From an uncultured Microbulbifer sp. (GTDB lineage: Bacteria > Pseudomonadota > Gammaproteobacteria > Pseudomonadales > Cellvibrionaceae), in the NCBI RefSeq assembly GCF_947504145.1, contig NZ_CANNGQ010000004.1, positions 124,001 through 188,000 on the forward strand: a stretch of DNA of 64,000 nt. The letters are read 5' to 3'. A program made the translations under genes and the position numbers. The notes under the pieces were generated by a model. That model worked only from the letters and a program-made list of their open reading frames with translations, was not told the origin of the DNA and did not search any database. This document shows, piece after piece, positions 6,148 through 59,146 of this stretch (position 1 is the stretch's first letter; each line of letters begins with the position of its first letter).

Positions 6148-6903
6148 TCAGTCGTAACTGAAAGTCAGGTGTTTGGGCGTCGCCTCACGGACCTTTTCGA
6201 CAAGTGGGTGCTGCATCTTTTTCATTTCCCGGAGCACCAGCTGTGCCACTTCCCGTGCCCCAAGTTGATTCAGGTGGGTGTCATCGCGAACACCATTCGG
6301 GTAGTTCGGATGGGTAGCGGGTTTTATATGTAGAAAACGCAGTGTGGAATTTTCATCGCCTTGCTGCTGAAAGTAGTCCCGGGTGATCGCATCCATATCA
6401 ATGAAGTCTACCTTCTCCTCTTTGGCCACTTCCCGGCTCAGCGGTGCATAAGGGTGGGTATGCTTGATGGATCCATTTTCGTCAAAATAGCGCCGCGTGA
6501 TCGGGCTCATCAACAGGGGGAATGCGCCTTTTGCGCGCACTTCACCAATGAAACGCGCCAGATTGGCTTTGTATTGTTCCGGCGTGGTGTAGCGGTCTTT
6601 CTTGTGTTCTGACTCGTCATTATGCCCAAACTGGATAATGACAAAATCACCCGCCTGCAGCGCCTTCTCGATCCTGCCCCAGTGTCCTTCTTCAATAAAT
6701 GTCCGTGTACTCCGGCCATTCATTGCATAATTTTCGACGTTAATACGCTCATCAAAAAACAGCGCAAACGGCATTCCCCAGCCAGTTTCCGGAAAGTCCG
6801 CATCCGCCTTTATCGACATGGTGGAGTCGCCAGCCATATACAAAGTTTCGGCGCTGGCAGCCAAAGGCAGCAGCAGCGCAAGGGAAAAAAATATTCTTTT
6901 CAT
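6148..6903 (-). CDS. SGNH/GDSL esterase, rhamnogalacturonan acetylesterase type (CE12)
   Basis: The predicted role is to remove acetyl groups from pectin or rhamnogalacturonan so that lyases can act. The 251-residue protein starts with a Sec signal peptide (MKRIFFSLALLLPLAASA). Block I is MAGDSTMS with the nucleophile Ser27. Block II is GRSTRTF, block III is FGHND and block V is DDTHLN near residue 205 with the catalytic Asp and His. These are the four SGNH blocks in the RGAE-like arrangement. The start at 6903 is chosen over an upstream frame because the signal peptide begins there. It follows the PL10 lyase gene by 82 bases on the same strand and is probably co-transcribed. Confidence 0.87.
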   Translation of the reverse strand: MKRIFFSLALLLPLAASAETLYMAGDSTMSIKADADFPETGWGMPFALFFDERINVENYAMNGRSTRTFIEEGHWGRIEKALQAGDFVIIQFGHNDESEHKKDRYTTPEQYKANLARFIGEVRAKGAFPLLMSPITRRYFDENGSIKHTHPYAPLSREVAKEEKVDFIDMDAITRDYFQQQGDENSTLRFLHIKPATHPNYPNGVRDDTHLNQLGAREVAQLVLREMKKMQHPLVEKVREATPKHLTFSYD

Positions 6904-6985
6904 ACTATGTAATTGTTTACCTCTACTGTCAGAGCCCGGTACGCTGTTCACCAGTGTACGGGCTATCTGTTTGCAAGAAATCCGA

Positions 6986-8245
6986 TTAGAAGTAGCCCAC
7001 ACTCTCGGCATAGCCGATCAATTCACTACCGTAGTTTCCGCCCCACTCGTAGCCATAGCGGCGCTCGGGATCAATAGCCATGATGTTGTACTGTTTGATA
7101 CCGGAACGGTCGGCAAAGAAACCAACATCCTGCTCCAGGTCGTAGAAGCGGTACCACATGGTGCTTCCGGATTTTGTCTGAATCGGGTTGTGAGAGTCAT
7201 CGTCACTACCGCCTGAGCGCTTGACGTAGGCAGTATCTGCTTCCTGCACTACCGGGCTCCGGTACCACGCCAGGGCGGCGCGCACAGCGGCTTCCACTTC
7301 GACCGTTTGCCGCTGGGACATCAAGAAGGCAGTCACCAGCATGGATTCCTTACCGCTCTTGGATGGCAATTCGTAGTCGCGCGCTCCACGGGGTTCATAG
7401 CTTATCGGGTCGTGCTGCGCACACCAGACGGTTTTGGCATCGGCCTGTACGATCTGTGCGTTAAGGATAAATTCCACACCGTCATCTATGGCGGTCTCGA
7501 TACGCGCGCGCTGATCTTCGCTGAACAGATCGCCATCCAAGGGCGCTTCCTGACGCGCGGCGTGATCAAGCAAGATCAGCACCCGTGCCATGGCACCATC
7601 ATTAAAGGTCACATGGTTGGAATAAGTGGTGCCGGTGCGCTTGGGGTACACCTGCGGCCAGCCACCGGATTCGTATTGCATGGTGAGCAGAAATTCCAGC
7701 GCGTTGCGTGCCGCATCGCGGTAGCTGTTGTCGCCGCTGCGTTGGTACACATCCGCCAGGAACATTAGTTCGGTAACGGTCGCATCGTTGTCGATCGTGC
7801 CCAACTCCACACCGCCTTCACCGGTCCAGTCGGATCGCGCACTGCTGCCATTCCAGGTTGTGTCGTACTTGGATACATCGTATTTGTAAAAGCCACCGTG
7901 GGGCATCTGCCAAGTGATCATGTTGTCCGCACGGGTTTCGTCCGCCGAAAGACTGCCACCCAACCAGGATTTGTAATTATCCAACTCACCGTAAATCGGA
8001 TTGCCCGTCTGCGAGAGCATTGGCGCTTCACCGCCGGAAGAAGACGAGCTGGAACTGCTGCCGCCAGATGATGAGCTGCTGGAAGAGCTGGAGGAAGAGC
8101 TTGAGGATGAACTTGAGCTGGATGAACTGCTGGACGCGTCGAAGACCGGAGGGTTGGCATCGGAGCCACCACTGCCGCCACCACAAGCGGTCAGCAGTAC
8201 GGATACCGCAACAGCGGCGATGCTTGGAAATAGTTTGAACTGCAT
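6986..8245 (-). CDS. Pectate lyase, PL10 family, surface lipoprotein with poly-Ser linker
   Basis: It is predicted to cleave polygalacturonate by calcium-dependent beta-elimination. The 419-residue protein has a lipoprotein signal with lipobox LTAC (Cys21), a linker of mostly serines at about residues 38-72 and an (alpha/alpha)3 PL10 catalytic domain to the end. Family signatures are GTIDNDATVTEL, GGWPQVYP and VTFNDGAM. The PRGARDYELPSKSGKES segment near residue 285 contains the arginine expected to act as base. The C-terminus YEWGGNYGSELIGYA matches the end of the Cellvibrio Pel10A type as I recall it. It is downstream of a TBDR gene but separated from it by a terminator. Confidence 0.9.
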   Translation of the reverse strand: MQFKLFPSIAAVAVSVLLTACGGGSGGSDANPPVFDASSSSSSSSSSSSSSSSSSSSSSSGGSSSSSSSSGGEAPMLSQTGNPIYGELDNYKSWLGGSLSADETRADNMITWQMPHGGFYKYDVSKYDTTWNGSSARSDWTGEGGVELGTIDNDATVTELMFLADVYQRSGDNSYRDAARNALEFLLTMQYESGGWPQVYPKRTGTTYSNHVTFNDGAMARVLILLDHAARQEAPLDGDLFSEDQRARIETAIDDGVEFILNAQIVQADAKTVWCAQHDPISYEPRGARDYELPSKSGKESMLVTAFLMSQRQTVEVEAAVRAALAWYRSPVVQEADTAYVKRSGGSDDDSHNPIQTKSGSTMWYRFYDLEQDVGFFADRSGIKQYNIMAIDPERRYGYEWGGNYGSELIGYAESVGYF

Positions 8246-8408: not shown

Positions 8409-11400
8409 TTAGAACTGTACGTTTACACCCATCTGATAGGTAGGCCCGTACGTCTCGCTCAGGTACATCATGTGCCCGCTGGAGTACTCGTTACCTTCAA
8501 AGTACTGGATGTTGCTTTGATCGGTGATATTCACCGCATCCAGGTACAGTTTTACGTTGTCGTTCACGCTGTAAGTGGCCTTGATGTCGAAGGTCACACC
8601 GGCATCCTGGTACACATCAGACCAGGCAGCACAGTCCTGGGAGTAGCCCAGGGCCGCGTCTGCTGCAATATCTGCTTCGGTGCAGGAACCGATGCGCTTG
8701 AGGATTTCGCTGCGGTAGTTGGTAATAAAACGTACGGAGAAATCGTTGTTTTCCCAACCCAGCGTGGTGTTCACCGTTACATCGGCCTGCTCCGGCAGAC
8801 GGATGGTTTCGGCGCGCACGCTTTCACCAACGTCCGCTTCCGAGTGCAGCAACGTGAAGTTGGATTGAATGAAGAAGTTCTTCAGCAGGCCTTCGACAAA
8901 GTACTGGTTGTAGGTCATTTCGAGACCGTAGACCTCAGCACCTTTACCGTTCAGGTAAGTCTGCGCGTTGGTCAGCTGCAGGTTCGACGGAATGTTGAAC
9001 ATGGTGACCTGATCCACCGGCAGGGTGTATGGCAGGTCGGCCAGCTTCAGATCGGCACCGGCGACTTCTACGATGAAATCGTCAATCTGCTTATAGAACG
9101 CCGCCCCCTGAATAAACAGGTTTTCACTGGCGTACCAACCCAGAGAAATATCGAAGTTGGTCGCAGTCATCGCGTCCAGCTTCGGGTTGCCGATTTCCAA
9201 TACATTGTCCGCAGACATTTCCAGATTCTGCGCTTTATACCCATCGGTGAAATCTTCTTCGGCAATTTCGCCCTGCAACTCAGCAGGCCGGTCGTTACAC
9301 TCCTTGCCTGCTTCCAAGTTTGCTGCTGGGTCATAGTTACAGAAGATCACCCGGTCGCGCACTTGCGCATAAGCACGAGCTTCGTCGAAAGACGGACGGG
9401 AGAATGAAGTCCACAGAGATGCACGCAGCAACAGGTCGTCGCGCAGCTCGTCTCGGTAGTGCAGGCTGGGGAAGAAACCACTGTAGGAGTTGGATGTATC
9501 GTCCAGTGGTACTGCAATATCGAAAGACTCCAGCTGGTCGGCACTCTCATCGCGATCGTTGCGGATCGAGAGATAACCGGTAGAGTTGAAGTCGGTCTGC
9601 TCATAGCGCACACCGGCAATCAGGGCACCGGTGTCGGTTACCTGGAACTCGCCCATGATGTAAGCAGCGGCGGTATCTTCGGTAATTTCGTAGTCGTTGC
9701 GGGTACTTTCCAGCTCACGCTGTTCCGGGTCGTAGCTGTCGGCAATTTGACGGGTGGCGGCAATCAGCCGCTCAGCTTCAGCTTGTGTGATAAACGCATG
9801 GTCGAACAACGGGTTATCCGGCATGAAGGTTTCGAAATCACCAAGACGCGCACCAGCGTTGTCGAGGCACTCTTGATCACCATCACAGCCAGCAACGCGC
9901 TTGTCATTGGGAATGATACTTACACGATTTTTATCGCGATTACGCTCGCGGTTTTTGATTTTGAAACCGGTTTTTACAAAGTTGACCGGGCCCATGTCAA
10001 AATCTTTGCGCAGGTTCGCCATCGCTTGGCTCAGACTGTCTTCGCGATAGCTGTCTTCCATAAACAGATTGTCGTACAGCATATACGGCTGCACGACCTC
10101 TCCGTACTGGTATCCGGAGGGGCCGAAACCGTTCGCACCTTCAACATTTTCAATGCCCGCAAGATCACCCAGCTGGTCCGGGTGAATTATCTGACCATTG
10201 AGAAAATCTTCGCCGGTGTGCCCCAGCGCAGTGATATCCCGCGAACGGAACTGTACCCGGCGGCCGTCAGGCGAATCCTGAGTGGCGCTTGAGTAAGTGA
10301 CTTCGTAATCCGCGGTCCAGTTGTTGCCGAACAGGTTCTCACCGCCGAGTGAGAACACTTTGGTGTCGCTTTCCGATTCCTGCATAAAGAACTGGTGCTG
10401 CAAGTCAATGCCACCGGAACCAAATACATTGTTCGCTGCATCCAGGTAGACCACTTCATCCGCGTCCGCCTGGCCCCAGCGATAGTACTCACGCAGGGCA
10501 GTATCTTCGTCGGTGTACACGGTGTTGCTGAAGCGTGCGTAGTACTTGCTGTTATCGGTCGGGCGGTATTCCAGGTCGAAGATACCGGCGATGCGCTCAC
10601 GTTCGGCATTTTCCTGACGGTTTTGCAGTTCAAACGGGATCAACATCGGGCTGTCAGCGCCATCCAGCGTCATGTAGCGCGGCAGGCTGCTATCGTGGGC
10701 GCGGGACTCGTAGCCCTCAGTAACGCGATTCTCGTAAGACAACGAGTAGCTGAAACCAATGGTTTCATCGGCAAAAATATTGGTGCCTTGCAGGGTCAGT
10801 TTGGGTGAGGTCTCCCCGCTCTGGTCCTGGAATGCGCCTTGGGCACGCACCTTGAACGTATCTTTTCCTCGATCCAGTGCGGATACGGTCGTCACATTGA
10901 CGCTACCACCGATGGAGTTGAGATCCATATCCGGCGTCAGTGATTTTAGCACTTCGATCGACGAAAGCACGTCGGCTGGCAGAGCATCCAAAGAGAAACC
11001 ACGGCTCTCACTATCAGCCGGGCCGCCGCCACTGTTTGCCATTTCCGAGCCGTTCATCTGTACCGAAACAAAACCCGGGCCAAGGCCGCGAAGATTGATG
11101 AACTTACCTTCACCTTCGGAGCTCTGCAGGGTAATGCCCGGAAGGCGCTGCAAGGATTCCGCCACATTCTGGTCAGCGAAGTTGCCGGAGTCATCCTGAG
11201 TAATCACGGAGCTGAACACATTTTTGTCGCGTTCGGCAGCGCGCGCGTTGAGCTCCGCACTTTTCACGCCTTCTACATATACTTCTTCAATAGAGTAATC
11301 GGAAGTTTCTTCTGAGGTATTTCCTGCTTGCTCAGTTGCTTCCTGAGCCATCAGGCTGGTGGAAGCGGCCATGGCGATGGCCACGGCGAGAATCTGTTTT

Positions 11401-11411
11401 TTATAAGTCAT
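8409..11411 (-). CDS. TonB-dependent receptor 1
   Basis: This is a 1,000-residue outer-membrane receptor, predicted to import oligosaccharides released from pectin using TonB energy. A Sec signal peptide (residues 1-22, ending MAQEAT) is followed by a TonB-box-like segment (EEVYVEGVK). The plug domain at about 60-180 has NVAESLQRLPGITLQ, INLRGLGPGFV and the GGSVNVTT end. A 22-strand barrel follows and ends in aromatic QMGVNVQF, the usual outer-membrane C-terminal signal. It is 112 bases downstream of a modular lipoprotein gene that may be its partner. No SusD-like gene is present, as expected for Gammaproteobacteria. The substrate is inferred from neighbours only. Confidence 0.92.
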   Translation of the reverse strand: MTYKKQILAVAIAMAASTSLMAQEATEQAGNTSEETSDYSIEEVYVEGVKSAELNARAAERDKNVFSSVITQDDSGNFADQNVAESLQRLPGITLQSSEGEGKFINLRGLGPGFVSVQMNGSEMANSGGGPADSESRGFSLDALPADVLSSIEVLKSLTPDMDLNSIGGSVNVTTVSALDRGKDTFKVRAQGAFQDQSGETSPKLTLQGTNIFADETIGFSYSLSYENRVTEGYESRAHDSSLPRYMTLDGADSPMLIPFELQNRQENAERERIAGIFDLEYRPTDNSKYYARFSNTVYTDEDTALREYYRWGQADADEVVYLDAANNVFGSGGIDLQHQFFMQESESDTKVFSLGGENLFGNNWTADYEVTYSSATQDSPDGRRVQFRSRDITALGHTGEDFLNGQIIHPDQLGDLAGIENVEGANGFGPSGYQYGEVVQPYMLYDNLFMEDSYREDSLSQAMANLRKDFDMGPVNFVKTGFKIKNRERNRDKNRVSIIPNDKRVAGCDGDQECLDNAGARLGDFETFMPDNPLFDHAFITQAEAERLIAATRQIADSYDPEQRELESTRNDYEITEDTAAAYIMGEFQVTDTGALIAGVRYEQTDFNSTGYLSIRNDRDESADQLESFDIAVPLDDTSNSYSGFFPSLHYRDELRDDLLLRASLWTSFSRPSFDEARAYAQVRDRVIFCNYDPAANLEAGKECNDRPAELQGEIAEEDFTDGYKAQNLEMSADNVLEIGNPKLDAMTATNFDISLGWYASENLFIQGAAFYKQIDDFIVEVAGADLKLADLPYTLPVDQVTMFNIPSNLQLTNAQTYLNGKGAEVYGLEMTYNQYFVEGLLKNFFIQSNFTLLHSEADVGESVRAETIRLPEQADVTVNTTLGWENNDFSVRFITNYRSEILKRIGSCTEADIAADAALGYSQDCAAWSDVYQDAGVTFDIKATYSVNDNVKLYLDAVNITDQSNIQYFEGNEYSSGHMMYLSETYGPTYQMGVNVQF

Positions 11412-11523: not shown

Positions 11524-14061
11524 TTACTGGTAGCGCACCTTGAAGTTGTCAATCACCACCGGGTTATCCGCGGTTCCGCTGTCACAACGCAGTTGCAGGA
11601 AGGAGTTGGCGGTACCTATGTGTGCCTCCGGATCGCTCGTAACGGTGACCGTGCCGATTGGCTGCTCACCATCGGCCATAACCGCGGCATAACTTTCGAA
11701 TACTTTCGAGTCGCCACCGTGGATTGACTTGCTGGAACTGGAGGTGTTGTTGTCCACATACACCTGGCACTTGCCAGATTCGACAGAGGTGTTGGGATTT
11801 TCCACCACATCGAAGGTGATGACATAAGGCATACTCAGATCCAGATCTCCGCGACCGGTCGTATCCGTATCGGCGGTATCTGTGCCTTGCAGGGCGTCAC
11901 CAATACTGAAGCGCGCGTCGTGCAGTGACAGTTTGCCGTCAGCCACGGTAATGCGTGAGCTGCCGCCAGTAGCGAAGTACATGGGTTTACTGGCATCGCC
12001 AGATTGCGCTTTGTACGTAGCGTCGAAGAAATTACCGCTCTCTGCGTCCGTGTCTTCAACCAAACCAACGCCATTGAAGTTTTCATCAAATATCGCGGAG
12101 GTATCGGCGCCGGCGTAGACATCCAGCTCACCAATTCCTTCTGGCAGTTCGCCGACCAGCTGCTCGGCAGTAACATCTGCTGCTGCGTGATCACTCCATA
12201 CCAGCCAATCGAGATTGGCGTGGAAGGCGCTACCGGATCCTTCACCAATACGGAACAGGCTGGCGGAACCACCGGAGCGGCCGGGGCCGGTAAAGTTGCC
12301 CACTTCTGTTCCATCGCGGTAGACAACAGCCGTGATGTTGTCGGCACCTGCGGCCGGGTCATTTACGGTGAAGCTGATCTGGTAGGTGTGGTAGCCATCG
12401 GAGAAATCCAGATCTTCCACTTCGGCGGTGACTTCACCGGCGAGGAACTTCTCGATCTGAATTTTTCCAGAGTCGGGACGGAGTATGGCTTTCAGGCGAC
12501 GCTCATCGATGTGCGTCTCGATTTCGAAACCGCGCGCGCCTTGGGTTACGGCCTTGGCGTTGTCGATACGGGCAATCCAGGTGAAGTGCTTGGGATAGGC
12601 GCCGGCGGCAACGATGCCGTCGAGATCACCAACCGGCTTGGTATCGCTGGTACCGTCCAGGGTATCCAGCTCCATGACGCCTTGCGGGCTCACTTCAAAC
12701 CACTCCAGCTCATCGTCACCGAAGGAGAAGTTGGTCTGCTCACTGCCGTTGATGACAACCGCGCCCAGATCACCGGGGTGAGTACAGCCGTCGTAAACAC
12801 TCCAGATAATGCCATTGGTTGCAGACGGGTCGACGGTGGTGGTCGGGGTGCAGTTGTCGCCAACCGGCGCTTCCGGTGTACCGGTTGCGGATGCGCTCCA
12901 CTCGCCCGGGCCCACGTTGTTCACACCGCGCACCCAAACGTAGTAGGTGCTGCCGTTGTCCAGTTCGGTCAACGTAGTAGAGGTATCGGTAAGGCCGGCA
13001 ACCACTTCTGCAGCGCTCATGTCGTCGCTGGTGCTATACGCTAGGTCGTAAGTAGCGGCGCCCAGTACTGAGCCCCAGCTCACTGCCATCTGCGCGTCGG
13101 TCGCGAAGGTGGTCGGCGCTTCGGGCGCATCTGGTGGTGAAGCCGGTTGGAATGGCGTGCACTCGGGCAACGCGGACTGCCCATCTTCGCTCTGCTTCTC
13201 AATCAACAGGTCGTCGATGATCGCGGTACCGCCGCTGGATACACGGAAATGCAGAAATGATTTTTCGGTGCCGATCACTTCAGATTTGTTATCGACTACA
13301 TCTCCCCCCGCTTGCAGGTAGGTATCACCGGGCACATTGATTACAACGCGCTCACCTGCAACGAGAGAGCCGGTTTCCACATCAAACAGGCGAGAACCCA
13401 CAGAGCCACCGCCATGAATAGAGTTGGCCTCACCGGTGGTGTTGTTGTTCACATAGACCTGGGTTTTGGAGCTAGCGCCCGAGGCCGAGGCGACACAGAA
13501 AGAAATACGGTACGGCTCGGAAAGGTCCAGCTCACCCCAACCACTGCCGCCGTCATCACCGGGGGTGGAATCCTTTTTAGGATCCTTTACATCACCAGCG
13601 AGCTCAGACCTGGTTTGACCAATAGTGAAGCGGGCATCACTGATTAGCAGTGAAGGGTCGCCGTTATCAGAAACAATGCCCAGGCGCTCTTTGTTATCGA
13701 CCGTGACCTCCATATTGGGATCGTCCTGGTCGAAGAAGCAGCAGGTCGGATAGTAAAATGCGGGACGTGTATCTTCGTACTCACTGCTGTCCGCAGTGGC
13801 CAGTGCCCTGTAGTTGGGGCTGAAGAAATCGATGGTGTCGCTCTGGTCGAAACCGGTGTATTCACCAAAACTTTCCACGATGGGGAGTGGTGTATTGGTG
13901 ATGCCGCTCTCTTCCGGCGGTACAACCACGACGGGTGGCGGTTCAGGCAGATCGGCAATATCGCCCTCTCCTGCTGAACTGCTACCACCACCGCCACAAG
14001 CGGTCAGTGTCCCCATAACGCACAGTGCCAGTGCGGACTTTGCCCAAGGTAAAGGTTTCAT
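11524..14061 (-). CDS. Modular lipoprotein with duplicated module, FnIII and LamG-like domain
   Basis: I do not recognise an enzyme family in this 845-residue protein. It has a lipoprotein signal (lipobox LTAC, Cys22). A first module at about residues 50-300 contains ARFTIG, GELDLSEPYRISF, QVYVNNNTT and SIHGGGS. A fibronectin type III domain lies at about 310-395, and a concanavalin/LamG-like beta-rich region at about 410-630. A second copy of the first module at about 645-845 contains ARFSIG, GDLDLSMPYVITF, QVYVDNNTS and SIHGGDS. The two copies share order and spacing of motifs, so they arose by duplication. No catalytic motif is evident. The best inference is a surface glycan-binding protein serving the TBDR encoded 112 bases downstream. 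The ATG at 14061 has AAGGGGTG upstream. Confidence 0.75.
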   Translation of the reverse strand: MKPLPWAKSALALCVMGTLTACGGGGSSSAGEGDIADLPEPPPVVVVPPEESGITNTPLPIVESFGEYTGFDQSDTIDFFSPNYRALATADSSEYEDTRPAFYYPTCCFFDQDDPNMEVTVDNKERLGIVSDNGDPSLLISDARFTIGQTRSELAGDVKDPKKDSTPGDDGGSGWGELDLSEPYRISFCVASASGASSKTQVYVNNNTTGEANSIHGGGSVGSRLFDVETGSLVAGERVVINVPGDTYLQAGGDVVDNKSEVIGTEKSFLHFRVSSGGTAIIDDLLIEKQSEDGQSALPECTPFQPASPPDAPEAPTTFATDAQMAVSWGSVLGAATYDLAYSTSDDMSAAEVVAGLTDTSTTLTELDNGSTYYVWVRGVNNVGPGEWSASATGTPEAPVGDNCTPTTTVDPSATNGIIWSVYDGCTHPGDLGAVVINGSEQTNFSFGDDELEWFEVSPQGVMELDTLDGTSDTKPVGDLDGIVAAGAYPKHFTWIARIDNAKAVTQGARGFEIETHIDERRLKAILRPDSGKIQIEKFLAGEVTAEVEDLDFSDGYHTYQISFTVNDPAAGADNITAVVYRDGTEVGNFTGPGRSGGSASLFRIGEGSGSAFHANLDWLVWSDHAAADVTAEQLVGELPEGIGELDVYAGADTSAIFDENFNGVGLVEDTDAESGNFFDATYKAQSGDASKPMYFATGGSSRITVADGKLSLHDARFSIGDALQGTDTADTDTTGRGDLDLSMPYVITFDVVENPNTSVESGKCQVYVDNNTSSSSKSIHGGDSKVFESYAAVMADGEQPIGTVTVTSDPEAHIGTANSFLQLRCDSGTADNPVVIDNFKVRYQ

Positions 14062-14500: not shown

Positions 14501-17500
14501 TTACTGGCAGCCGGCCCCGCCAAGATCGATCACGTAACTCTGACTATTGGCCAGCGGTGAGTTGAACGGGATATGTCCGTCTTTACCCGCCGTGGCAATC
14601 ACATAGTCCGCGAGCTGCTGACCTGCCGGGCGGCGCTCGGCGGCGATCACATTGCGAGAATCTTGTGAGTAGTTCTGCGAGAGATCAGGCACAGAACCGG
14701 AACTGTCGCTGATGGTGTACACCAGGGAAGAATCCAGGTTACAGGCGGCGTCGGAGAACCATACCTTGCTGCCTTCGCTGCGGAAGTTACCGTCGTCCAC
14801 ATCGCGCGCCAGCTCTTCGCCGCGCTCGTTCAACGCCTGCACCACGTCATCCTTTTCCTGGAAGTCGCGATTCATCATGAAGGTGTTGTCTTCCCACAGC
14901 ACGGTTGCGCCCACACGCACGCTCAGGATGTCCTTGCGATAATTCATAAAGAAGTTATCGAACATGTGTGAGGTGCCGCGACGGATCAGCGGGATACGAC
15001 GCAGGGTGTTACCCAGGCTGTCGTAGTGGTCGTCGGTGGTGATAAACGCGTTGTGGTGCATGGTGGTGGTGATCTGCTCGTTGATGGTCCGAGAGTCACT
15101 GGAGCCGTGCAGGGAAGCGCGCTTCACGTTGATCAGTTTGTTGAAGGAAATGGTGATGTCGTAGGCACCCACTTTCACATCAAACGCCGCGTCACCGGTG
15201 GTGTCGAAGGTGTTTTTGTGAATCCAGATGTCGTGGGACGCACCGGTGTTGCGGATCATGTCCGGATCCAGGCCGTGGTCCTCAACGTGACCGGCACCGC
15301 GGAAATCCAGATGGGTCAGAATTACGCTCTGCTCGGTTTCCACCGGCTGACCACTGCTGTCGGAACCAATGGCAAAACCGTTAAAGCGGAAGTAGCCGTT
15401 GCTGAAACGTCCGTCGATGGTTTTGTGGGAACCGATCTTGGCGTTGCGGATCGGCAGGTCATTGTCGTCCAGTCGGTTGTTGAAAAACTCCGCCAGACAG
15501 GAATCACCAGACAGGCCATTGCTGGAACACCAGCTGCGGAAATCGCGACACTGGGCTTCGCTACCATTGATGGCAGATTGTACGGAAGAATCGCCACAGA
15601 AGTTGCGGTGCATGGAAATTTCGGTTTCCTCTCCACCAACAGAGGCGAAATCAAATTTGTCGAACACGATCCAGTTGTGCTCGTCGCCGGTGATGGCGTC
15701 GAGGATCTGCTGCTCAACCGGCACGCTGCTGTTTTTGGTGATCACGGTCAGCTTGCTGTTGCCATTGGGATCGTAACCGCCCATGGCGTTTTCACCGTAA
15801 CCCACCGGACGACCGAGGGTTTCATACAGGCACTGTACGATCTTCTGGTCAGTATCCAGTACGGAGGAATCGCGCCAGTTTACGTTCGGGTCGGTGGCCA
15901 GGGTTTCACAGGCGATTGGATTGCCGCCGGAGGAGGAACCGCCGGAGCCTGAGCCACTACCAGAACCACTACCAGAACTGCTACTGGAGCTACTGGACGA
16001 CGAGCTGCTGCCGCCAGAGGAACCGGAACCACTACCACCAGAGGAACTACTGGAAGAAGAACTGCTAGAGCTGCTGCCACCGGAGGAAGAACCGACGCCG
16101 CCATTACAGTCGCCAGCACTCGGGGCAGAACCGATCACAGACAGGCTGTCGATGTTTGCCAGACCGCTACTTCCCGTCGCTTCAAGTCGGATTTCGTTGT
16201 AACCCGCGTTCAACCACACGGTCACGGAACCGCTATCGGCATAGTTACCCCAGGCACCGGTGCCCGGCAGGCTGACGTTGGCTTGGGGGCCATCATCTAC
16301 CAGCACGGATCCGGGGCGGTCGCTGCTGCCGTTGGCGTAGCGCCACTGCAGGGTGTAATTACCCGCAGCCGGTACCACTACAGACCAGTCCACACCCAGT
16401 CCGCTTTCGTTCTCGGTATTGGCGTAACCGCTGCCGGTGTAGCCGCTGTGCTCGGATTCCAGCGCGCCGTCTACAGAACAGTAACCCGCTTCCGTTTCCT
16501 GGAGCACCAACGTGCTCGGTGCCGTGCTGATTACTGCATCGTCGCCATTGGAGTTGTACACCACCAGATTCTGGTCGGTGACTTTGACCCAGTAGTAGTA
16601 GGTGCCGTCCGCCAGATTGATATCGGTATAACTGTTACCGATCACACCAGTTGCAATACGCAGGCGGCCGGCCGGATCCGGATCGGTATCCCGGTAAACT
16701 TCCTGGTTGCGCACATCGATACCGTCGGTGTTCCAATTCAGCTGCGCATCGGTGCCGGAAGTTCCCACGCTCAGAGTCACGTCGCCACCACTGGAAGAAC
16801 CGCCGGAAGATCCACCAGAAGAGGAAGAGCTGGAGGAGGAAGACGAGCTGCTGCCGCCGGAGGAAGAGCCGCTGCCTGATGCATTGTAGATTTCAAACTC
16901 GGCAATCTGCGGCGCGCTGGAAGCGGAATCGATCATCAGATTGATCTTGCCCATGCTTACATCGCCAAGGTATACCTGCCGTTCAGAACCGATCCCGTTA
17001 CCGGAAGCCAGTTCATCGCCGTTGTCGTTGTTGACCAGGCGCCAGTTCTGCACGTTGCTGCCAATCTCACGAATGATCACGGTATTGAAAGAACCACCGA
17101 AATTTTTCGCAGAGATGCGCTCACCACTGGAAGAGCCCGGCTGCCAGTAGCTGCTGGTATCACCGTCGATAGCATTGCCGTAGCTGGAACCACTGCCTTT
17201 GCTGGAACCATCTGCATCGCCGGAGAGTGCGAGGTTCGAGCCCAGTTCGCCGCCGCCAGAGCCGCTGCCGCCAGAAGAACTGGACGAGCTGCTGGAAGAA
17301 CTGGAGGTAGAGCTGCCACCAGAGCTGGAGCTTGAACCAGAGCTACTGCCGCCCGACGAACTGGAACTGCTGGAACTGGAAGAACCCGCAACGCAGCCGC
17401 TGTCCGCGACCTGGTTGCCCTTGTTGGCACCCGCTGTTGCCGCGACGATCTGCGGCACCAGATTGCCGTTACACAACTGGTAGCTGTAGGGAATACTAAT

Positions 17501-18460
17501 GGACGTGGTGGATGTCGGGTTAGGGCCGGCGGGATGGTTGTCATCGTCATCCGCGGTCCAGGTAATGTTGGACCAGACGTTGCCACTCACCTCCCAGTAA
17601 CCCATGTCATTGGTGTAGAAGGTGCCGAGCGGATCCTTCGAGTTTTCGAAGTAATTGTTTTCCGCCTTCATGCGCCCGCCGATCCGCGGGTTCATGCCAG
17701 ATTTATTGATACCCGTGTAATGGTTGTTGAACGCGTGCGCCGTGGCGCCGCGCAACAGCGGGGTGCGGGAATCAATATTCTGGTAGAGGTTATGGTGGAA
17801 AGTGACTGGGCCATTGTTGGTGTCGCTATCACTGGAACCCACAAGACCGCCGCGGCCGGAGTTGCGCAGGATGCTGTAGGAAAGGGTTACGTATTTGGTG
17901 TCCGCCTTCATATCGAACAGCGCGTCGTAACCGTCGCTCTCACCGCCCTGCGCTTCCAGGGTCAGGTGGTCTGCCCACACGTTGTAAACGCCACTTTCCA
18001 TACCAATGGCATCACCGCCGTTGGAGGTGGGCGAGCCGGATTTTTTCACATTCCGCACATGCAGGTTCTGCAGAATGATGTTGGAAGCACTGCGCAGGTG
18101 AATCCCCAATTCATCGAACAGCGCGCCGTTGCCGACACCGATGATGGAGACGTTGCTCACTTCCTTTATTTCGATCACGCCGTCTGCGGTATTACAGCTG
18201 TCACCAGACACCTTGCTGGTGTTGCCGTGATTGATGGTGCCTTCGACGTGAATGATGACGGGGGTGTCGTCCGACGGGCGATTACACAATGCCGCGTGGA
18301 TTTCGGTGCCGGTAGTGGCGTACACCACGTTGCCGCCGGCGCCGCCAGTAGTGCCGCCATTTTGGGTGGCAAACCCCGTGGCCTGCGCGGAGACATCCGC
18401 GGCCGCGAAGGTGCCCAGCAATGCACTCAGCACCGCCGCTCTCTTCAACTTGATTTGCAT
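14501..18460 (-). CDS. Multimodular pectate lyase with two PL1 catalytic domains
   Basis: This is a 1,319-residue secreted enzyme. Signal peptide 1-25. The first PL1 beta-helix, about 27-350, has VWADHLTLE, the calcium-side DALFDMKAD segment and the catalytic-arginine motif RTPLLRG. Three poly-Ser/Gly linkers lie near 355-403, 527-557 and 787-845. Between the linkers are a discoidin (F5/8 C)-like module (about 405-525), an FnIII-like module (557-645) and a CBM35-like module (650-778, QETEAGYC to ANIDSLSV). A second PL1 domain fills about 847-1319, with DIWIHKNTFD, ASLHGSSDS and RRIPLIRRG, so it also keeps the arginine motif. The start at 18460 has GGAAGGT upstream; an in-frame extension to 18550 lacks a signal. 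Two active PL1 domains are likely but not proven. Confidence 0.9.
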   Translation of the reverse strand: MQIKLKRAAVLSALLGTFAAADVSAQATGFATQNGGTTGGAGGNVVYATTGTEIHAALCNRPSDDTPVIIHVEGTINHGNTSKVSGDSCNTADGVIEIKEVSNVSIIGVGNGALFDELGIHLRSASNIILQNLHVRNVKKSGSPTSNGGDAIGMESGVYNVWADHLTLEAQGGESDGYDALFDMKADTKYVTLSYSILRNSGRGGLVGSSDSDTNNGPVTFHHNLYQNIDSRTPLLRGATAHAFNNHYTGINKSGMNPRIGGRMKAENNYFENSKDPLGTFYTNDMGYWEVSGNVWSNITWTADDDDNHPAGPNPTSTTSISIPYSYQLCNGNLVPQIVAATAGANKGNQVADSGCVAGSSSSSSSSSSGGSSSGSSSSSGGSSTSSSSSSSSSSSGGSGSGGGELGSNLALSGDADGSSKGSGSSYGNAIDGDTSSYWQPGSSSGERISAKNFGGSFNTVIIREIGSNVQNWRLVNNDNGDELASGNGIGSERQVYLGDVSMGKINLMIDSASSAPQIAEFEIYNASGSGSSSGGSSSSSSSSSSSSGGSSGGSSSGGDVTLSVGTSGTDAQLNWNTDGIDVRNQEVYRDTDPDPAGRLRIATGVIGNSYTDINLADGTYYYWVKVTDQNLVVYNSNGDDAVISTAPSTLVLQETEAGYCSVDGALESEHSGYTGSGYANTENESGLGVDWSVVVPAAGNYTLQWRYANGSSDRPGSVLVDDGPQANVSLPGTGAWGNYADSGSVTVWLNAGYNEIRLEATGSSGLANIDSLSVIGSAPSAGDCNGGVGSSSGGSSSSSSSSSSSSGGSGSGSSGGSSSSSSSSSSSSGSGSGSGSGSGGSSSGGNPIACETLATDPNVNWRDSSVLDTDQKIVQCLYETLGRPVGYGENAMGGYDPNGNSKLTVITKNSSVPVEQQILDAITGDEHNWIVFDKFDFASVGGEETEISMHRNFCGDSSVQSAINGSEAQCRDFRSWCSSNGLSGDSCLAEFFNNRLDDNDLPIRNAKIGSHKTIDGRFSNGYFRFNGFAIGSDSSGQPVETEQSVILTHLDFRGAGHVEDHGLDPDMIRNTGASHDIWIHKNTFDTTGDAAFDVKVGAYDITISFNKLINVKRASLHGSSDSRTINEQITTTMHHNAFITTDDHYDSLGNTLRRIPLIRRGTSHMFDNFFMNYRKDILSVRVGATVLWEDNTFMMNRDFQEKDDVVQALNERGEELARDVDDGNFRSEGSKVWFSDAACNLDSSLVYTISDSSGSVPDLSQNYSQDSRNVIAAERRPAGQQLADYVIATAGKDGHIPFNSPLANSQSYVIDLGGAGCQ

Positions 18461-18941: not shown

Positions 18942-20243
18942 TTACTCAATCAATCCCAGCGCGCGCGGCAGAAACTCGCTGATGGCCGGCACCAGAGTGA
19001 CCAGCCCCAGTACCACAAACATCATGAGGTACATGGGCATCAGCGGACGAATCAACGCAGTGATTGATGTTTTGGAAATACTCGCCCCCACAAACAGCAC
19101 GCTGCCCACCGGCGGCGTGCACAGGCCGATACACAGGTTCAGGATCATCACGATACCGAACTGCAGCGGCGACATTCCCAGCTCGGTCACCACCGGCAGG
19201 AAGATGGGGGTAAAAATCAGTACCGCCGGGGTCATGTCCATAAAGGCACCCACGGCGAGCAGAATCAGGTTGATGGTGAGCAGGATTAACAGCGGGTTGT
19301 CGCTGAGAGTGATCAGCGCCTGGCTGATGGTCTGCGGAATATTCTGGTAGGACATGATCCAGGACATGGCCGAAGACGCTGCGATCAGGAACATCACAAT
19401 CGCGGTGGTCTCGACGGACTTGGTCAGCAGCGCCGGCAACTGGGTCAGCTTCACTTCCTTGTACACCACACAGGACAGCAGCAGCGAGTAGAGCACCGCA
19501 ATAGCGCTGGCCTCGGTGGCAGTGAAGAAGCCGCTGATGATGCCGCCAATCACGATAAAGATCAGGAACAGGCTGGGCACCGCGTCCACAGTTTTCTGAA
19601 CCGCCTCTTTCAAGGTCGGCTTTTCACCCACCGGGTAGCCTTTCGCTTTCGCCCAGAGTCCACACACCATCATCAGGCCCAGCGCCAGCAGCAGGCCCGG
19701 CAGATAACCGGCGATAAACAGCGCGGCGATGGAAACACCACCGGAGGCGAGGGAGAAGACGATGAGAATATTGCTCGGCGGAATCAACAGACCGGTGGTG
19801 GACGATGCCACGGTCACCGCAGTGTTGAAGTTCTTGTCGTAACCCGCCTTGGTCATAGACGGAATCATAAAACCGCCGATGGCCGAAGTGGCGGCAACCG
19901 CAGAACCGGAGATGGAACCGAACAGGGTGCAGCTGATGATGTTCACGAATGCCAGGCCGCCGGGAAGCATACCCACCAGCACCTTGGCGAAGTCGATAAT
20001 GCGCCGGGCGATACCGCCGCTGCCCATCAACATGCCGGAGAAAATAAAGAACGGAATCGCCAGCAGTGCAAAACTGTCGATGCCGCTGGCCATCCGCTGG
20101 GCCATGGTGATCATGGCCGGGTCAAAATCGATGGTACACAACATGGTGAGCACGGTGGCCGCACCAATACTGATGGAAATGGGAACATTCAGAGCGAGCA
20201 GGATCAGAAAACTGACCAGTAATACCAGAACTGCGACTTCCAC
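18942..20243 (-). CDS. dctM: TRAP transporter large permease (DctM)
   Basis: This 433-residue protein consists of about a dozen hydrophobic segments throughout, with the TRAP large-subunit patterns GIARRIIDFAKVLVGMLPGGL, CTLFGSISGSAVAATSAIG and TGLLIPPSNILIVFSLASGG. It forms the ion-coupled channel of a tripartite ATP-independent periplasmic transporter. The start is GTG with GAGGAGA about eight bases upstream. It is the last gene of kdgK-dctP-dctQ-dctM, 15 bases after dctQ. The location in a uronate operon suggests transport of galacturonate or unsaturated/keto-deoxy uronates. The exact substrate is inferred. Confidence 0.93.
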   Translation of the reverse strand: MEVAVLVLLVSFLILLALNVPISISIGAATVLTMLCTIDFDPAMITMAQRMASGIDSFALLAIPFFIFSGMLMGSGGIARRIIDFAKVLVGMLPGGLAFVNIISCTLFGSISGSAVAATSAIGGFMIPSMTKAGYDKNFNTAVTVASSTTGLLIPPSNILIVFSLASGGVSIAALFIAGYLPGLLLALGLMMVCGLWAKAKGYPVGEKPTLKEAVQKTVDAVPSLFLIFIVIGGIISGFFTATEASAIAVLYSLLLSCVVYKEVKLTQLPALLTKSVETTAIVMFLIAASSAMSWIMSYQNIPQTISQALITLSDNPLLILLTINLILLAVGAFMDMTPAVLIFTPIFLPVVTELGMSPLQFGIVMILNLCIGLCTPPVGSVLFVGASISKTSITALIRPLMPMYLMMFVVLGLVTLVPAISEFLPRALGLIE

Positions 20244-20258
20244 GATGACTCTCCTCGC

Positions 20259-20852
20259 TTAGGCTTCGACAGCAGCTTTGGGCTGCTTTTGTTTTTGTTG
20301 GGGTTCCCGACCGGTCGCCGACGCTTCCGCATCGTCGTTGCTGTCCGTGTATGGATGCACTTCCGAATCCGATACCGGCGGCAACTCTTCCTTCGCCGTG
20401 ACCAGCTGGATCAGGTGATCCACAGAGAACAGACAGATCAGCAGGCCGGACAGCGGCAACACGCTGTACACAAACCCCATGGGCAGCCCCAGCGCAGCGG
20501 AGTACTGCTCGAGCTCGAAGGTGAGCAGCATCAGCTTGGCACCGCCGTAGACCATCGCCATGGCAGAAAAGGCGAAGCACACCAGCACCACAAAAATCTG
20601 CAGCGCGCGGCGCTTGGCGCCGTGCAGGGCATTCGTCAGCAGGTCGATACCCAGGTGGGATTTTTTACGATAGGCGTAGGCGCCACCCAGCAGACCAATC
20701 CACACCAGCAGGTAGCGCGCCACCTCTTCGGTATAGGAGCTTGGCTGCATGGGCAGGAAGCGGGTGAGTATCTGCCAGGTCACGTCCAGCACCATCAGCG
20801 CCAGCAGTGAACCGAGCACAAAGGCCAGGGCCTTTTCAATTTTCTGCATCAT
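20259..20852 (-). CDS. dctQ: TRAP transporter small permease (DctQ)
   Basis: This 197-residue protein has four membrane segments (near residues 10-30, 50-65, 85-110 and 130-150) and the DctQ-like QILTRFLPMQPSSYTEEVARYLLVWIG pattern. The C-terminal 40 residues are a charged, Gln/Lys-rich cytoplasmic tail, longer than is typical. It pairs with DctM to make the membrane part of the transporter. Two adjacent ATGs follow a GGAAGG site; the first is used here. Confidence 0.9.
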   Translation of the reverse strand: MMQKIEKALAFVLGSLLALMVLDVTWQILTRFLPMQPSSYTEEVARYLLVWIGLLGGAYAYRKKSHLGIDLLTNALHGAKRRALQIFVVLVCFAFSAMAMVYGGAKLMLLTFELEQYSAALGLPMGFVYSVLPLSGLLICLFSVDHLIQLVTAKEELPPVSDSEVHPYTDSNDDAEASATGREPQQKQKQPKAAVEA

Positions 20853-20893
20853 CTTTGCCTTCCACTTTTATTTTTTTAGTGGGCTTTTATGAA

Positions 20894-21886
20894 TTACATA
20901 ATCGCTTTGATTTGATCCAGCAGATCGCCGACTTCGGTGCCTTTGTAGCTGTCGTGCAACGGCTTGACCGCATCGATAAAGGGTTGCTTGTCCGGGTAGA
21001 TCACTTCCACACCGGCCGCCTTCACCGCCGCCAGAGATTCCTCGGTGGACTCCTGCCACAGCTTGCGCTGGTAGGTCACCGCTTCCGCAACTGCCTGCTC
21101 GAGCCACTCCTGCTGTTGTGGCGTGAGCTTGCCCCACACCTCGGTGCTGATCAGCAGCAGGTCCGGCACATAGGTGTGCTCGTCGAGGGTGTAGTACTTG
21201 GACACTTCGTAGTGTTTGGAGAGGTAGAAACTCGGCGGGTTGTTCTCGGCCCCATTGACCACACCCTGCTGCAGCGCGGTGTACAGCTCGCCCCAGCTCA
21301 CCGGAGTGGCGGCGCCGCCGAGGGTGTTGACCATTTTGATCGAGGTCTGGCTGTTCTGAACGCGAATTTTCTGACCGGCGAGATCCGCCGGCGACTGAAC
21401 GCCGATATCGTTCATGTAGAAGCTGCGGCTGCCGGCATCCAGGTAGCCCAGGCCGCGCAGGCGTGCGCGCTCACAGGCCACCAGCAGGTCTTTGCCGATG
21501 GGGCTCTGCAGCACATTCCAGAAATGCTCGGAATCGCGGAATACGTAGGGGAGATTGAAGATTTTCATCTCCGGCACGAAGCCCTCCATGGGGCTGGCGG
21601 AGACCTTGGTCATTGCCAGGCTGCCGATCTGCAGCAGCTCGATCAGCTCGCGCTCGCTACCCAGCTGGCCGCCGGAGTAGATGTCGATACGCATGGTATC
21701 GCCAGACAGCTCCCGCAGGCGCTCGTCCATAAACACCATGGCACGGTGCACGGAGTGTTGCTGGTCCAGGGTGTGGGCCAGCTTCAGGGCCACCTGGTCT
21801 TCCTGGAAACCACAGCTGGCCAGGAACAGGGTGGTGCCAGCCAGGGCCGCAGCGCGCAGCTGCCGCCAGAATCTTCTCATTATCAT
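20894..21886 (-). CDS. dctP: TRAP transporter substrate-binding protein (DctP), lipoprotein type
   Basis: This 330-residue solute-binding protein captures the substrate in the periplasm. The DctP fold is shown by the GGQLGSERELIELLQIGSLAM segment and the KIRVQNS segment near residue 150, whose arginine normally grips the substrate carboxylate. GVVNGAENNPPSFY is near 215. The N-terminus ends in a lipobox-like LASC (Cys25), so the protein may be membrane-anchored; most DctP proteins are soluble. The carboxylate arginine fits a uronic acid ligand. It lies 92 bases after kdgK, and a GntR-type palindrome sits in that space, so it may also start its own transcript. Confidence 0.9.
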   Translation of the reverse strand: MIMRRFWRQLRAAALAGTTLFLASCGFQEDQVALKLAHTLDQQHSVHRAMVFMDERLRELSGDTMRIDIYSGGQLGSERELIELLQIGSLAMTKVSASPMEGFVPEMKIFNLPYVFRDSEHFWNVLQSPIGKDLLVACERARLRGLGYLDAGSRSFYMNDIGVQSPADLAGQKIRVQNSQTSIKMVNTLGGAATPVSWGELYTALQQGVVNGAENNPPSFYLSKHYEVSKYYTLDEHTYVPDLLLISTEVWGKLTPQQQEWLEQAVAEAVTYQRKLWQESTEESLAAVKAAGVEVIYPDKQPFIDAVKPLHDSYKGTEVGDLLDQIKAIM

Positions 21887-21975
21887 CGTTGTGACCTGTT
21901 ATTTATTTCTTATCGAGTACAGGTTTGCTGGTTTGACGCTTTAAGGAGCACGACCTCCCGAACGGCAGACCAGAT

Positions 21976-21986
21976 TGGTCATACCA
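21976..21986. promoter_or_regulatory. GntR-type operator between kdgK and dctP
   Basis: TGGTCATACCA matches TGGTNNNACCA exactly and overlaps the kdgK stop codon, about 90 bases upstream of dctP. It suggests a second, regulated promoter for dctPQM inside the operon. Confidence 0.55.
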
Positions 21987-22965: not shown

Positions 22966-23062
22966 GGCGTCCACCTCTGTATTTCCAACATCGTTGTATT
23001 TATCGTCGTCAGCCCAGCGGATTGCGCCACTTGCGCAGCAAGGCCTTACCAAAATCCAGCAC

Positions 23063-23073
23063 AGGTATAACCA
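23063..23073. promoter_or_regulatory. GntR-type operator, kdgK proximal
   Basis: AGGTATAACCA has the GGTNNNACC core of the recurrent palindrome with one outer mismatch. It lies about 100 bases upstream of kdgK in the 454-base divergent region between kdgK and the GntR gene. Confidence 0.45.
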
Positions 23074-23144
23074 ATTTACCCCCCCAAGGCAACTGTCGCC
23101 GCGCCGTGCGACGCGTGTGAGGCCAAATTTCACCCAACACCAAC

Positions 23145-42495: not shown

Positions 42496-42522
42496 GGGGA
42501 CTCCAAATGGAGTCCCTTTTTT
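42496..42522 (+). terminator. Intrinsic terminator after TBDR 2
   Basis: GGGACTCC and GGAGTCCC pair around AAAT and run into six T residues, 30 bases after the TBDR stop. The ATG at 42507 in its loop is therefore not taken as the start of the next gene. Confidence 0.9.
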
Positions 42523-42563
42523 CTCCCCTTAGCGGTTTGCAATTTGAAGAGGTGTGGTACGCG

Positions 42564-56289: not shown

Positions 56290-56380
56290 CTCCACAAATT
56301 CGGGTTTTATTCTGTTATTTGCCATTAAAAAAGAACGGCGGTAAATCGAAAAACGGCCAGGTGCGACTTCGAATCCTGAC

Positions 56381-56398
56381 GCTGGTGTTTCCACCAGC
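56381..56398. other. Hairpin between TBDR 3 and the DUF4861-GH105 gene
   Basis: GCTGGTG and CACCAGC pair around TTTC. There is no T-tract, so it is not a clear terminator. It could be an mRNA processing or stability element within a transcript running from the TBDR gene into the kdu genes. The arms also resemble the GntR half-site TGGT but with wrong spacing. Confidence 0.4.
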
Positions 56399-59116: not shown

Positions 59117-59146
59117 GACTCTCATCTCCGCTTATCGTCGTTATTT

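Follow-up and report, generated by a model that had tools for sequence, protein, structure and literature searches.

The minus-strand gene at 11524..14061 of the window (the whole 64,000-nucleotide stretch of DNA that was analyzed) encodes a lipoprotein that we regard, with a probability of roughly 0.6, as a putative surface glycan-binding partner of a pectin TonB-dependent receptor (TBDR). This partner would be SusD/SGBP-like in function, without being a SusD homolog, and would combine a receptor-matched membrane-proximal domain with exchangeable distal pectin binders. We infer that it binds pectin, is exposed at the surface, and physically contacts the receptor. In the proposed mechanism, the outer-membrane lipoprotein would catch pectin (homogalacturonan or oligomers) at the cell surface and present it to the TBDR encoded beside it. 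Its module M1, membrane-proximal and receptor-matched, would probably dock on the TBDR or hand the glycan over, and the fibronectin type III (FnIII) domain, the LamG-like domain, and module M2 would form an extended, exchangeable substrate-capturing arm.

For the SusD role in a lineage from which SusD is not known, the window locus offers a concrete candidate whose proposed docking domain can be tested. Excerpts of two papers describe SusD-like proteins as known from Bacteroidetes only (PMC8319329) and as unique to Bacteroidetes (PMC5698469). Excerpts of a third report no susD in Microbulbifer sp. HZ11, and call susD unique to "the order Alteromonadales" (PMC11678492), which contradicts the other two. 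No SusD-like partner in Gammaproteobacteria was evident from the titles and abstract openings surveyed. During a North Sea spring bloom, Gammaproteobacteria and Bacteroidetes contributed roughly equal shares of the TonB-dependent transporter proteins, and a polysaccharide substrate was predictable for fewer of the gammaproteobacterial transporters (excerpts of PMC8319329).

The lipoprotein and its pectin locus

Features of the locus are:
6148..7011, minus: GDSL esterase similar to the pectin acetylesterase PaeY, scoring far under the cut-off of the PaeY model
6986..8245, minus: PL10 pectate lyase downstream of the TBDR (PF09492, E 8e-116), with a lipobox-like N-terminus
8409..11411, minus: TBDR of the TIGR01782 subfamily (NCBIfam), 1000 aa
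11412..11523, no strand: gap of 112 bases from lipoprotein stop to TBDR start
11524..14061, minus: lipoprotein CDS, 845 aa, order M1-FnIII-LamG/ConA-like-M2
11527..12105, minus: module M2, residues 653-845, predicted β-jelly-roll
12106..12855, minus: LamG/ConA-like domain, about residues 403-652 (weak Laminin_G_3 match, structural alignment with BT_1020)
12856..13152, minus: FnIII domain, about residues 304-402 (PF00041, structural matches)
13153..13884, minus: module M1, residues 60-303, N-terminal copy, receptor-matched (module comparison, co-divergence)
13885..13995, minus: acidic, proline-rich linker, residues 23-59 (from sequence)
13996..14061, minus: signal peptide and lipobox, residues 1-22, LTA-C22 (from sequence)
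14501..18460, minus: two-domain PL1 pectate lyase with a CBM35-like domain, next gene upstream (PF00544 twice, PF18099)
18942..23133, minus: TRAP transporter genes and PfkB sugar kinase (DctQ, DctP, and PfkB matches)

The lipoprotein is read from the ATG at 14061; a further in-frame ATG at 14091 would lengthen the ORF. Its lipobox (LTA-C, residues 19-22) has Gly at position +2, and C22 is invariant across 18 aligned rows. The receptor gene starts at 11411, 112 bases downstream, as an earlier note on this DNA had stated. The TBDR scores 487.8 bits against TIGR01782 (cut-off 310), and a SusC-type model is absent from its four NCBIfam matches (E≤1). The scanned neighbors of the lipoprotein gene serve pectin or uronate use. 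The TRAP transporter and PfkB genes would serve uptake and catabolism of the products; the large TRAP permease (18942-20243) was called by reading its translation rather than by a family scan.

Scans of the whole lipoprotein against Pfam and NCBIfam (both E≤1) found no catalytic family, on which grounds a catalytic function was rejected. NCBIfam gave no match to it at all; the Pfam matches are fn3, Ig_J_second, and Pur_ac_phosph_N, each of them over the FnIII region, which two weak PHROG tail-protein matches at residues 273-395 also cover.

A duplicated module and its predicted fold

The earlier note had described two copies of a module of about 200 residues, separated by FnIII and LamG-like regions, which it could not assign to a known CBM. 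The duplication is clear from local alignment of M1 with M2, which scores 181 (500 shuffles of M2: mean 38.6, SD 7.1, maximum 75), and the four motifs listed in that note recur in both copies: ARFxIG (ARFTIG at 143, ARFSIG at 716), G(E/D)LDLSxPYxI(S/T)F (GELDLSEPYRISF at 176, GDLDLSMPYVITF at 738), QVYVxNNT (QVYVNNNT at 201, QVYVDNNT at 766), and SIHGGxS (SIHGGGS at 214, SIHGGDS at 779). The proposed size fits M2 (about 193 aa), whereas M1 is longer (about 244 aa). Between the copies, FnIII is confirmed by PF00041 (E 3.4e-7, residues 319-394) and by structural matches over residues 306-401. The LamG-like assignment is supported by the predicted structure, with residues 421-626 aligning to residues 417-614 of the sialidase BT_1020 (Z 13.5, 165 residues), but is weak by sequence: Laminin_G_3 has an E-value of 0.025 in the window protein and, under a limit of E≤10, was matched by 6 of 17 family members, with a best E-value of 0.0046. 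The full-length model behind these structural matches, of moderate confidence (mean pLDDT 67), was used solely for the FnIII and LamG-like parts.

When Pfam, NCBIfam, and PDB sequences were searched, neither M1 nor M2 of the window protein reached a cut-off, in agreement with the lack of a CBM assignment. CBM models matched neither of them (Pfam, E≤1) nor any of 21 M2-type modules scanned singly (Pfam, E≤10); M1-type modules were scanned against Pfam within whole proteins. Profile searches against PDB sequences gave no plausible relative (best E 0.3 for M1, 0.023 for the LamG-like domain, and 0.83 for M2-type modules). Matches below cut-off were seen in modules of three relatives: CBM_4_9 (19.4 bits, cut-off 25.9) and CBM_6 (18.2, 28.9) in L107, NPCBM (20.3, 23.9) in L083, and F5_F8_type_C_2 (21.3, 27.8) in L082. 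CBM96, described in excerpts of PMC9971899 as a recent polyuronate-binding family, was rejected as the identity of the module, with no CBM96-type match in Pfam or NCBIfam scans. No name for the module was evident from the titles and abstract openings surveyed; an earlier description is possible in Hehemann et al. (2017), on marine gammaproteobacterial pectin degradation.

The predicted fold of M2 is nevertheless common to many CBMs. The M2 model (pLDDT 93.8, pTM 0.90) is a CBM-type β-jelly-roll; this high-confidence prediction covers M2 alone. Among the 50 structural matches listed, many CBM families and non-CBM folds tie (Z 9.2-11.5, 8-18% identity). Solved structures near the model include CBM4-2 (Z 10.0), CBM29 (9.7), CBM61 (9.6), and CBM16 (9.4), and reelin, meprin, and Eph domains are also among the top matches. 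Foldseek gave the same kinds of fold. The jelly-roll CBM families compared with the model were 4, 16, 27, 29, 61, and 86.

Module relatives in pectinases and beside receptors

The module occurs beyond the window lipoprotein (183 modules covering nearly the full profile, drawn from 65 loci; 77 representatives at <70% identity) and is fused elsewhere to pectinases. Its conserved polar residues include R65, D118, N119, H129, and R173 in M2 numbering. It is joined to PL1 in 7 of 17 relatives' loci, to PL9 in L076 and L147, to PL10 in L077, and to CE8 plus PL1 in giant proteins of Alteromonadales, and once (L145) lies beside CBM77 within one ORF. In the named-genome scan, which took the best 80 of 89 relatives and covers 66 distinct loci, 45 of 78 module ORFs carry PL1, PL9, PL10, or CE8 domains. 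Because of these fusions and the adjacent CBM77, homogalacturonan is the likely ligand. As a non-catalytic module contiguous with PL1, PL9, PL10, and CE8 domains, M1/M2 resembles a CBM in the CAZy sense and is comparable to the pectin-binding CBM77, CBM35, and CBM13, which are likewise non-catalytic and appended to pectinases, but it does not match their Pfam models. M1/M2 is a candidate for a new pectin-binding CBM family. The ligand or role may vary, since an M1-type lipoprotein in L079 adjoins amylase and pullulanase genes, in a 20-kb stretch with no match to the window's TBDRs. The Bacillota carriers L148 and L150 are lipoproteins, either small or with a FIVAR domain, in which no pectinase domain was recognized.

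In 55 of the 66 named loci (again from the best 80 of 89 relatives), no more than 400 bp separates a module ORF from a same-strand TBDR, in either gene order. Such pairing applies to 31 of 45 module ORFs with a pectinase domain and to 24 of 33 without one, the latter including the fragments L101, L123, L125, and L136. Of the 11 loci in which no neighboring TBDR was counted, L117 and L125 run off their contigs, and in L128 the module ORF adjoins a truncated TBDR that was too short to be included.

The CE8-PL1 lipoprotein WP_108605272.1 of Saccharobesus litoralis shares with the window protein the module, the lipobox, and TBDR adjacency. The Alteromonadales giants are single chains of about 2000-2570 aa that join enzyme and binding modules and carry a different N-terminal domain, whereas no catalytic domain was found in the window lipoprotein. 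In excerpts of PMC7953866, a CAZy-based table gives just PL1 and CE8 for WP_108605272.1, so that the candidate pectin-binding family appears to have been overlooked by published CAZyme annotation in at least one protein.

These relatives also bear on the face of the membrane that the lipoprotein occupies. A lipobox with a residue other than Asp at +2 indicates the outer membrane and leaves the face undefined, and this would suit a periplasm-facing lipoprotein that binds imported oligogalacturonides. Such a location is very improbable, as related TBDR-neighbor lipoproteins bear CE8 and PL1, which would be expected to act on polymeric pectin outside; the genome encodes a GspD secretin that scores above the model's cut-off; and WP_108605272.1 is annotated as cell-surface on the strength of its lipobox (excerpts of PMC7953866).

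Co-divergence with the receptor and comparison with SusD systems

Co-conservation with the receptor, proposed as a check in the earlier note, was found throughout the genus: lipoprotein (M1 at E≤1e-8) and TBDR ortholog (E≤1e-180) were found in one and the same set of 24 genomes out of 48 and are adjacent in all 24 (17/17 first genomes, 6/6 later genomes, and the window). Divergence of M1 follows that of the TBDR, with r of 0.74 in 18 genomes and 0.82 in the 13 of these having all parts; the partial correlations given gyrB are 0.73 and 0.81 (permutation p 0.0002). The corresponding values are 0.33 and 0.52 for the LamG-like domain (partial 0.30 and 0.49, p 0.0016 and 0.0006) and 0.25 in both sets for M2 (partial 0.17 and 0.18, p 0.05; raw Mantel p 0.02). 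Since the LamG-like domain significantly and M2 weakly also correlate with the receptor, the difference between M1 and M2 is one of degree. Bootstrapping over 19 genomes puts it at 0.54 (95% 0.29-0.76). Pairs with at least one held-out genome gave r of 0.75 for M1, 0.27 for the LamG-like domain, and 0.23 for M2; within the six held-out genomes alone (15 pairs) all three correlate with the receptor (0.95, 0.87, and 0.85), so the contrast rests on deeper splits. In a sliding scan of the receptor, r with M1 was 0.63-0.83 in all 24 windows, and no single stretch is responsible. The C-terminal arm varies, M1 being present in 18/18 genomes and M2 in 14/18. Physical linkage as the cause was rejected for the genus, because M2 rather than M1 adjoins the receptor gene and linkage predicts the opposite pattern.

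Neighboring pectinases served as controls (10, 11, and 13 of the 18 genomes; >50% identity and 80% coverage required). PL10 correlates with the receptor at r 0.25 (M1 0.92 on the same 11 genomes), and the PL1 domains at 0.57 in 10 genomes and 0.33 in 13 (M1 0.88 and 0.84 on the same sets). These controls weigh on the alternative that the lipoprotein is a standard cell-anchored CBM protein, tethering the cell to pectin, and adjoins the receptor only by sharing a pectin locus. A pectin-tethering lipoprotein would look alike among such neighbors, yet we consider it unlikely, as M1 follows the receptor more closely than the pectinases do, and receptor adjacency recurs across the genus and the named loci in either gene order.

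The co-divergence of M1 would also fit if the modules bound protein instead of glycan, as docking domains gathering module-bearing pectinases and the lipoprotein on the receptor. In 7/17 loci the lipoprotein shares the module with PL1 lyases encoded nearby in that locus, which fits this idea, and jelly-rolls such as the reelin, meprin, and Eph domains matched by M2 also mediate protein contacts. Nevertheless, protein docking seems improbable: a search of the window's genome (E≤0.001) returned M1 and M2 themselves only, leaving no homotypic partner protein, and up to six module copies in one polypeptide (L095, L096) would fit polymer avidity better.

The partner reading can be set against known systems. 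The earlier suggestion of a SusD/SGBP counterpart stands as a functional comparison, given the lipid anchor, the failure to find a catalytic domain, TBDR pairing, pectinase fusions, and M1 co-divergence, and fails as homology to SusD, which was rejected by sequence because the whole protein matches no SusD/RagB-type family in Pfam or NCBIfam (both E≤1). As in the SusCD pair of Bacteroidota, a lipoprotein (lipobox, 112-bp gap) is encoded directly beside a TBDR in a polysaccharide locus and co-inherited with it (24/24 genus genomes). The SusD fold is helical, whereas the window lipoprotein has predicted β-sandwich modules, and its partner scores as TIGR01782 rather than as a SusC/RagA type. SGBPs of Bacteroides (SusE/SusF type) are lipid-anchored, non-catalytic proteins with several β-sandwich modules, encoded beside the receptor. 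The window protein, from a TBDR-bearing polysaccharide locus, shares these traits (the fold being confident for M2 only), but its modules belong to a sequence family unnamed in the searched libraries and are also found fused to pectinases.

A broader proposal, which we hold tentatively and at less than even odds, is a convergent SusD system in Gammaproteobacteria, in which an unnamed jelly-roll module that binds pectin would form the basis of TBDR-partner lipoproteins. The membrane-proximal N-terminal domain would dock on and co-evolve with the receptor, distal modules would be swapped by recombination, and Alteromonadales would have fused pectin esterase and lyase into the partner, allowing one chain to capture, cut, and deliver. 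If true, this would account for the multi-module pectinases that many Alteromonadales encode immediately next to a receptor gene. Among the giants (29 with receptor, 24 with C-terminal module, 22 once near-identical receptors were removed), the N-terminal domain of about 315 aa, which differs from the module, tracks the receptor best (r 0.94; first module 0.81), in a gene order that also permits linkage. This domain is also present in two Cellvibrio proteins away from TBDRs (L107).

Predicted fold and duplication of the module

The ORF at 11524-14061 on the minus strand of the window encodes an 845-residue lipoprotein, and the gene for a TonB-dependent receptor (TBDR; 8409..11411, minus strand) starts 112 bases downstream, as stated in the earlier note. 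The lipoprotein is composed as follows:

Residues 19-22 (minus-strand lipoprotein): lipobox
Between the lipobox and M1: acidic, proline-rich linker
Residues 60-303: module M1
Between M1 and the LamG/ConA-like domain: FnIII domain
Between FnIII and M2: LamG/ConA-like domain (LAM)
Residues 653-845: module M2

The local alignment score of M1 and M2, 181, is far above the maximum of 75 obtained in 500 shuffles. Therefore, the two modules are homologous, confirming the duplication first read from the sequence; the motifs listed for both modules were all found in the lipoprotein. That the module could not be assigned to a known CBM was also borne out. Pfam matches of the lipoprotein (E<=1) were confined to the FnIII region (fn3, Ig_J_second, Pur_ac_phosph_N), NCBIfam gave no match, and profiles of M1, the M2-type module and LAM found nothing convincing among PDB sequences. 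When 21 M2-type modules were each searched alone against Pfam, the matches were scattered over eight unrelated families, each hit by at most two of the modules (best E 0.003). A few relatives' modules gave sub-cut-off matches to jelly-roll CBM models (CBM_4_9, CBM_6, NPCBM, F5_F8). The AlphaFold2 model of M2 (pLDDT 93.8, 78-row alignment) was placed by the proposed Foldseek check, and by VIA-align, among beta-jelly-rolls of several CBM and non-CBM kinds (reelin, meprin and Eph domains, CBM4, 16, 27, 29, 61 and others), with Z of 9.2-11.5 among the matches listed and no single family outstanding. Because many jelly-rolls match equally well and no sequence match is convincing, the predicted fold is a common one and the sequence family has no name in the libraries searched. 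R65, D118, N119, N120, T121, S127, H129, S133, Q171 and R173 of M2 are among the polar residues that are invariant or nearly so in 78 modules.

Distribution and pairing with receptor genes

With its own genome counted, the module occurs in 10 of 390 genomes (6 of 142 genera) in the order scan and in 4 of 398 genomes (3 of 212 genera) in the phylum scan. A named scan, seeded by one peptide pattern, gave at least 66 distinct module loci among the best 80 of 89 relatives, a sample to which the locus counts below refer. By record title, sixty-one are gammaproteobacterial (Microbulbifer, Gilvimarinus, Cellvibrio, Marinimicrobium, Alteromonas, Paraglaciecola, Pseudoalteromonas, Colwellia and others), and five come from Evansella, three Bacillota MAGs and one MAG labelled Acholeplasmatales. 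The architectures are:

Lipoproteins adjoining TBDRs, no catalytic domain found
Alteromonadales giants (~2000-2570 aa) that combine 2-5 modules with CE8 and PL1 and frequently bear C-terminal modules too
PL1, PL9 and PL10 enzymes bearing the module
One ORF with the module and CBM77

A search for PL1, PL9, PL10 and CE8 only found a pectinase domain in 45 of the 78 module ORFs. In a Pfam scan of 26 module-bearing proteins, the single other enzyme-named model above its cut-off was 3keto-disac_hyd (29.7 bits, cut-off 26.8, in L084), a match that appears to be a LamG-like region. This pectinase-associated module of CBM type is unclassified, and the lipoprotein, a candidate receptor partner, carries two copies of it.

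Two TBDR neighbours (L095:6095-10546 and L096:6623-11035) carry six modules, no catalytic domain found, with a separate PL1 gene downstream; they are possibly intermediate between binding-only and fused-enzyme forms. In two assemblies (L101:4322-10486, L123:3675-10486), two ORFs stand in place of the single giant CE8-PL1 gene, through either a real break or an assembly error. A 453-aa lipoprotein (L079:8486-9847, genome G125), with an M1-type module 43% identical and an N-terminal 200 residues without assigned domain, adjoins cyclomaltodextrinase, pullulanase and amylase genes, not pectin genes. In two Bacillota MAGs (L148, L150), FIVAR-domain proteins carry the module at their C-terminus, and it also occurs in small ORFs that stand alone and resemble lipoproteins; none of the scanned ORFs had a recognised pectinase domain.

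In 55 of the 66 loci, no more than 400 bp separate a module ORF from a same-strand TBDR, with the two genes in either order. Receptor orthologues (E<=1e-180) were found in 24 of 48 genomes of the genus and M1 lipoproteins (E<=1e-8) in the same 24, and the two genes are adjacent in 17/17 genomes fetched first, 6/6 fetched later and the window, so the co-conservation proposed as a check holds. The pair is also borne on two plasmids, of a Pseudoalteromonas and of Saccharobesus litoralis, where TBDR WP_108605273.1 adjoins WP_108605272.1.

Co-divergence with the receptor

Correlation of pairwise identities, receptor versus lipoprotein part
Comparison: M1; LAM; M2
18 genomes, r: 0.74; 0.33; 0.25
13 genomes with all parts, r: 0.82; 0.52; 0.25
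Jackknife range: 0.77-0.87; 0.42-0.59; 0.16-0.34
Partial on gyrB, 13 genomes: 0.81; 0.49; 0.18
Permutation p of the partial correlation, 13 genomes: 0.0002; 0.0006; 0.05
Joint regression: 0.87; about zero; about zero
Pairs including one of six previously unused genomes: 0.75; 0.27; 0.23
Inside these six genomes alone: 0.95; 0.87; 0.85

M1 is the part that follows the receptor most closely, LAM does so less and the correlation of M2 is weak; inside the six previously unused genomes alone, all parts correlate. Bootstrap differences over 19 genomes were 0.54 (0.29-0.76) for M1 minus M2 and 0.41 (0.22-0.59) for M1 minus LAM. Two relatives illustrate this: L029 is 88% identical to the window in the receptor, 86% in M1 and 41% in LAM, and L024 is 57% identical in the receptor, 54% in M1 and 76% in M2. 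Linkage would favour M2, since M2 is the part nearest the receptor gene in this genus. The N-terminal module was ahead again in 12 Gilvimarinus/Cellvibrio-type pairs (0.94 vs 0.82). In 22 Alteromonadales giants, an N-terminal domain different from the module was highest (0.94), followed by the first module (0.81), CE8 (0.76), PL1 (0.68) and the C-terminal module (0.68); here, gene order is compatible with linkage as the cause. Across these groups, the membrane-proximal domain is the part best matched to the receptor.

The N-terminal domain of the giants, the part of these pectinases co-diverging most with the receptor (r 0.94), is conserved over ~315 aa (L104:7298-8320 and the N-termini of others in a set of 34 proteins). 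It had no Pfam match in 4/4 scanned and also occurs in two Cellvibrio proteins away from TBDRs.

Proposed working and the probable pectin locus

Judging from sequence, the jelly-roll modules probably capture homogalacturonan and the lipoprotein would hand oligomers on to the receptor, with M1 probably beside the receptor and M2 at the tip of a flexible arm. Type II secretion is a possible, speculative route to the surface because GspD is present in the genome. The suggested SusD/SGBP counterpart stands in outline and in a sharper form: the lipoprotein is not itself a SusD, but its role is probably like that of SusD/SGBP.

Two papers describe SusD-like partners as known only from, or unique to, Bacteroidetes (PMC8319329; PMC5698469); contrary to these, a third terms susD unique to the order Alteromonadales, and reports that none was found in Microbulbifer sp. 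HZ11 (PMC11678492). The HZ11 genome (L087) has the same PL1-lipoprotein-TBDR-PL10 order as the window. In the third paper gene0313 is listed as PL1 and gene0316 as PL10, a numbering that would fit two unlisted genes between them. WP_108605272.1, a module-bearing protein adjoining its receptor, is catalogued in PMC7953866 as PL1, CE8 and lipobox, with no CBM.

The scanned neighbours in the window include genes for a PL1 lyase with two domains, a PL10 lyase, a GDSL esterase, a TRAP transporter, a PfkB kinase, mannitol-dehydrogenase-type reductases and UxuA, a KduI-like gene, GH88-family genes and two further TBDRs. The locus appears to serve the use of pectin and uronates. Because a search of the own genome found no module copy besides M1 and M2, these two TBDRs have no partner bearing this module. 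The one at 39519-42467 adjoins an alginate-lyase-family gene (42507-43742), the one at 56474-59125 a DUF4861-GH88 fusion gene (53770-56394).
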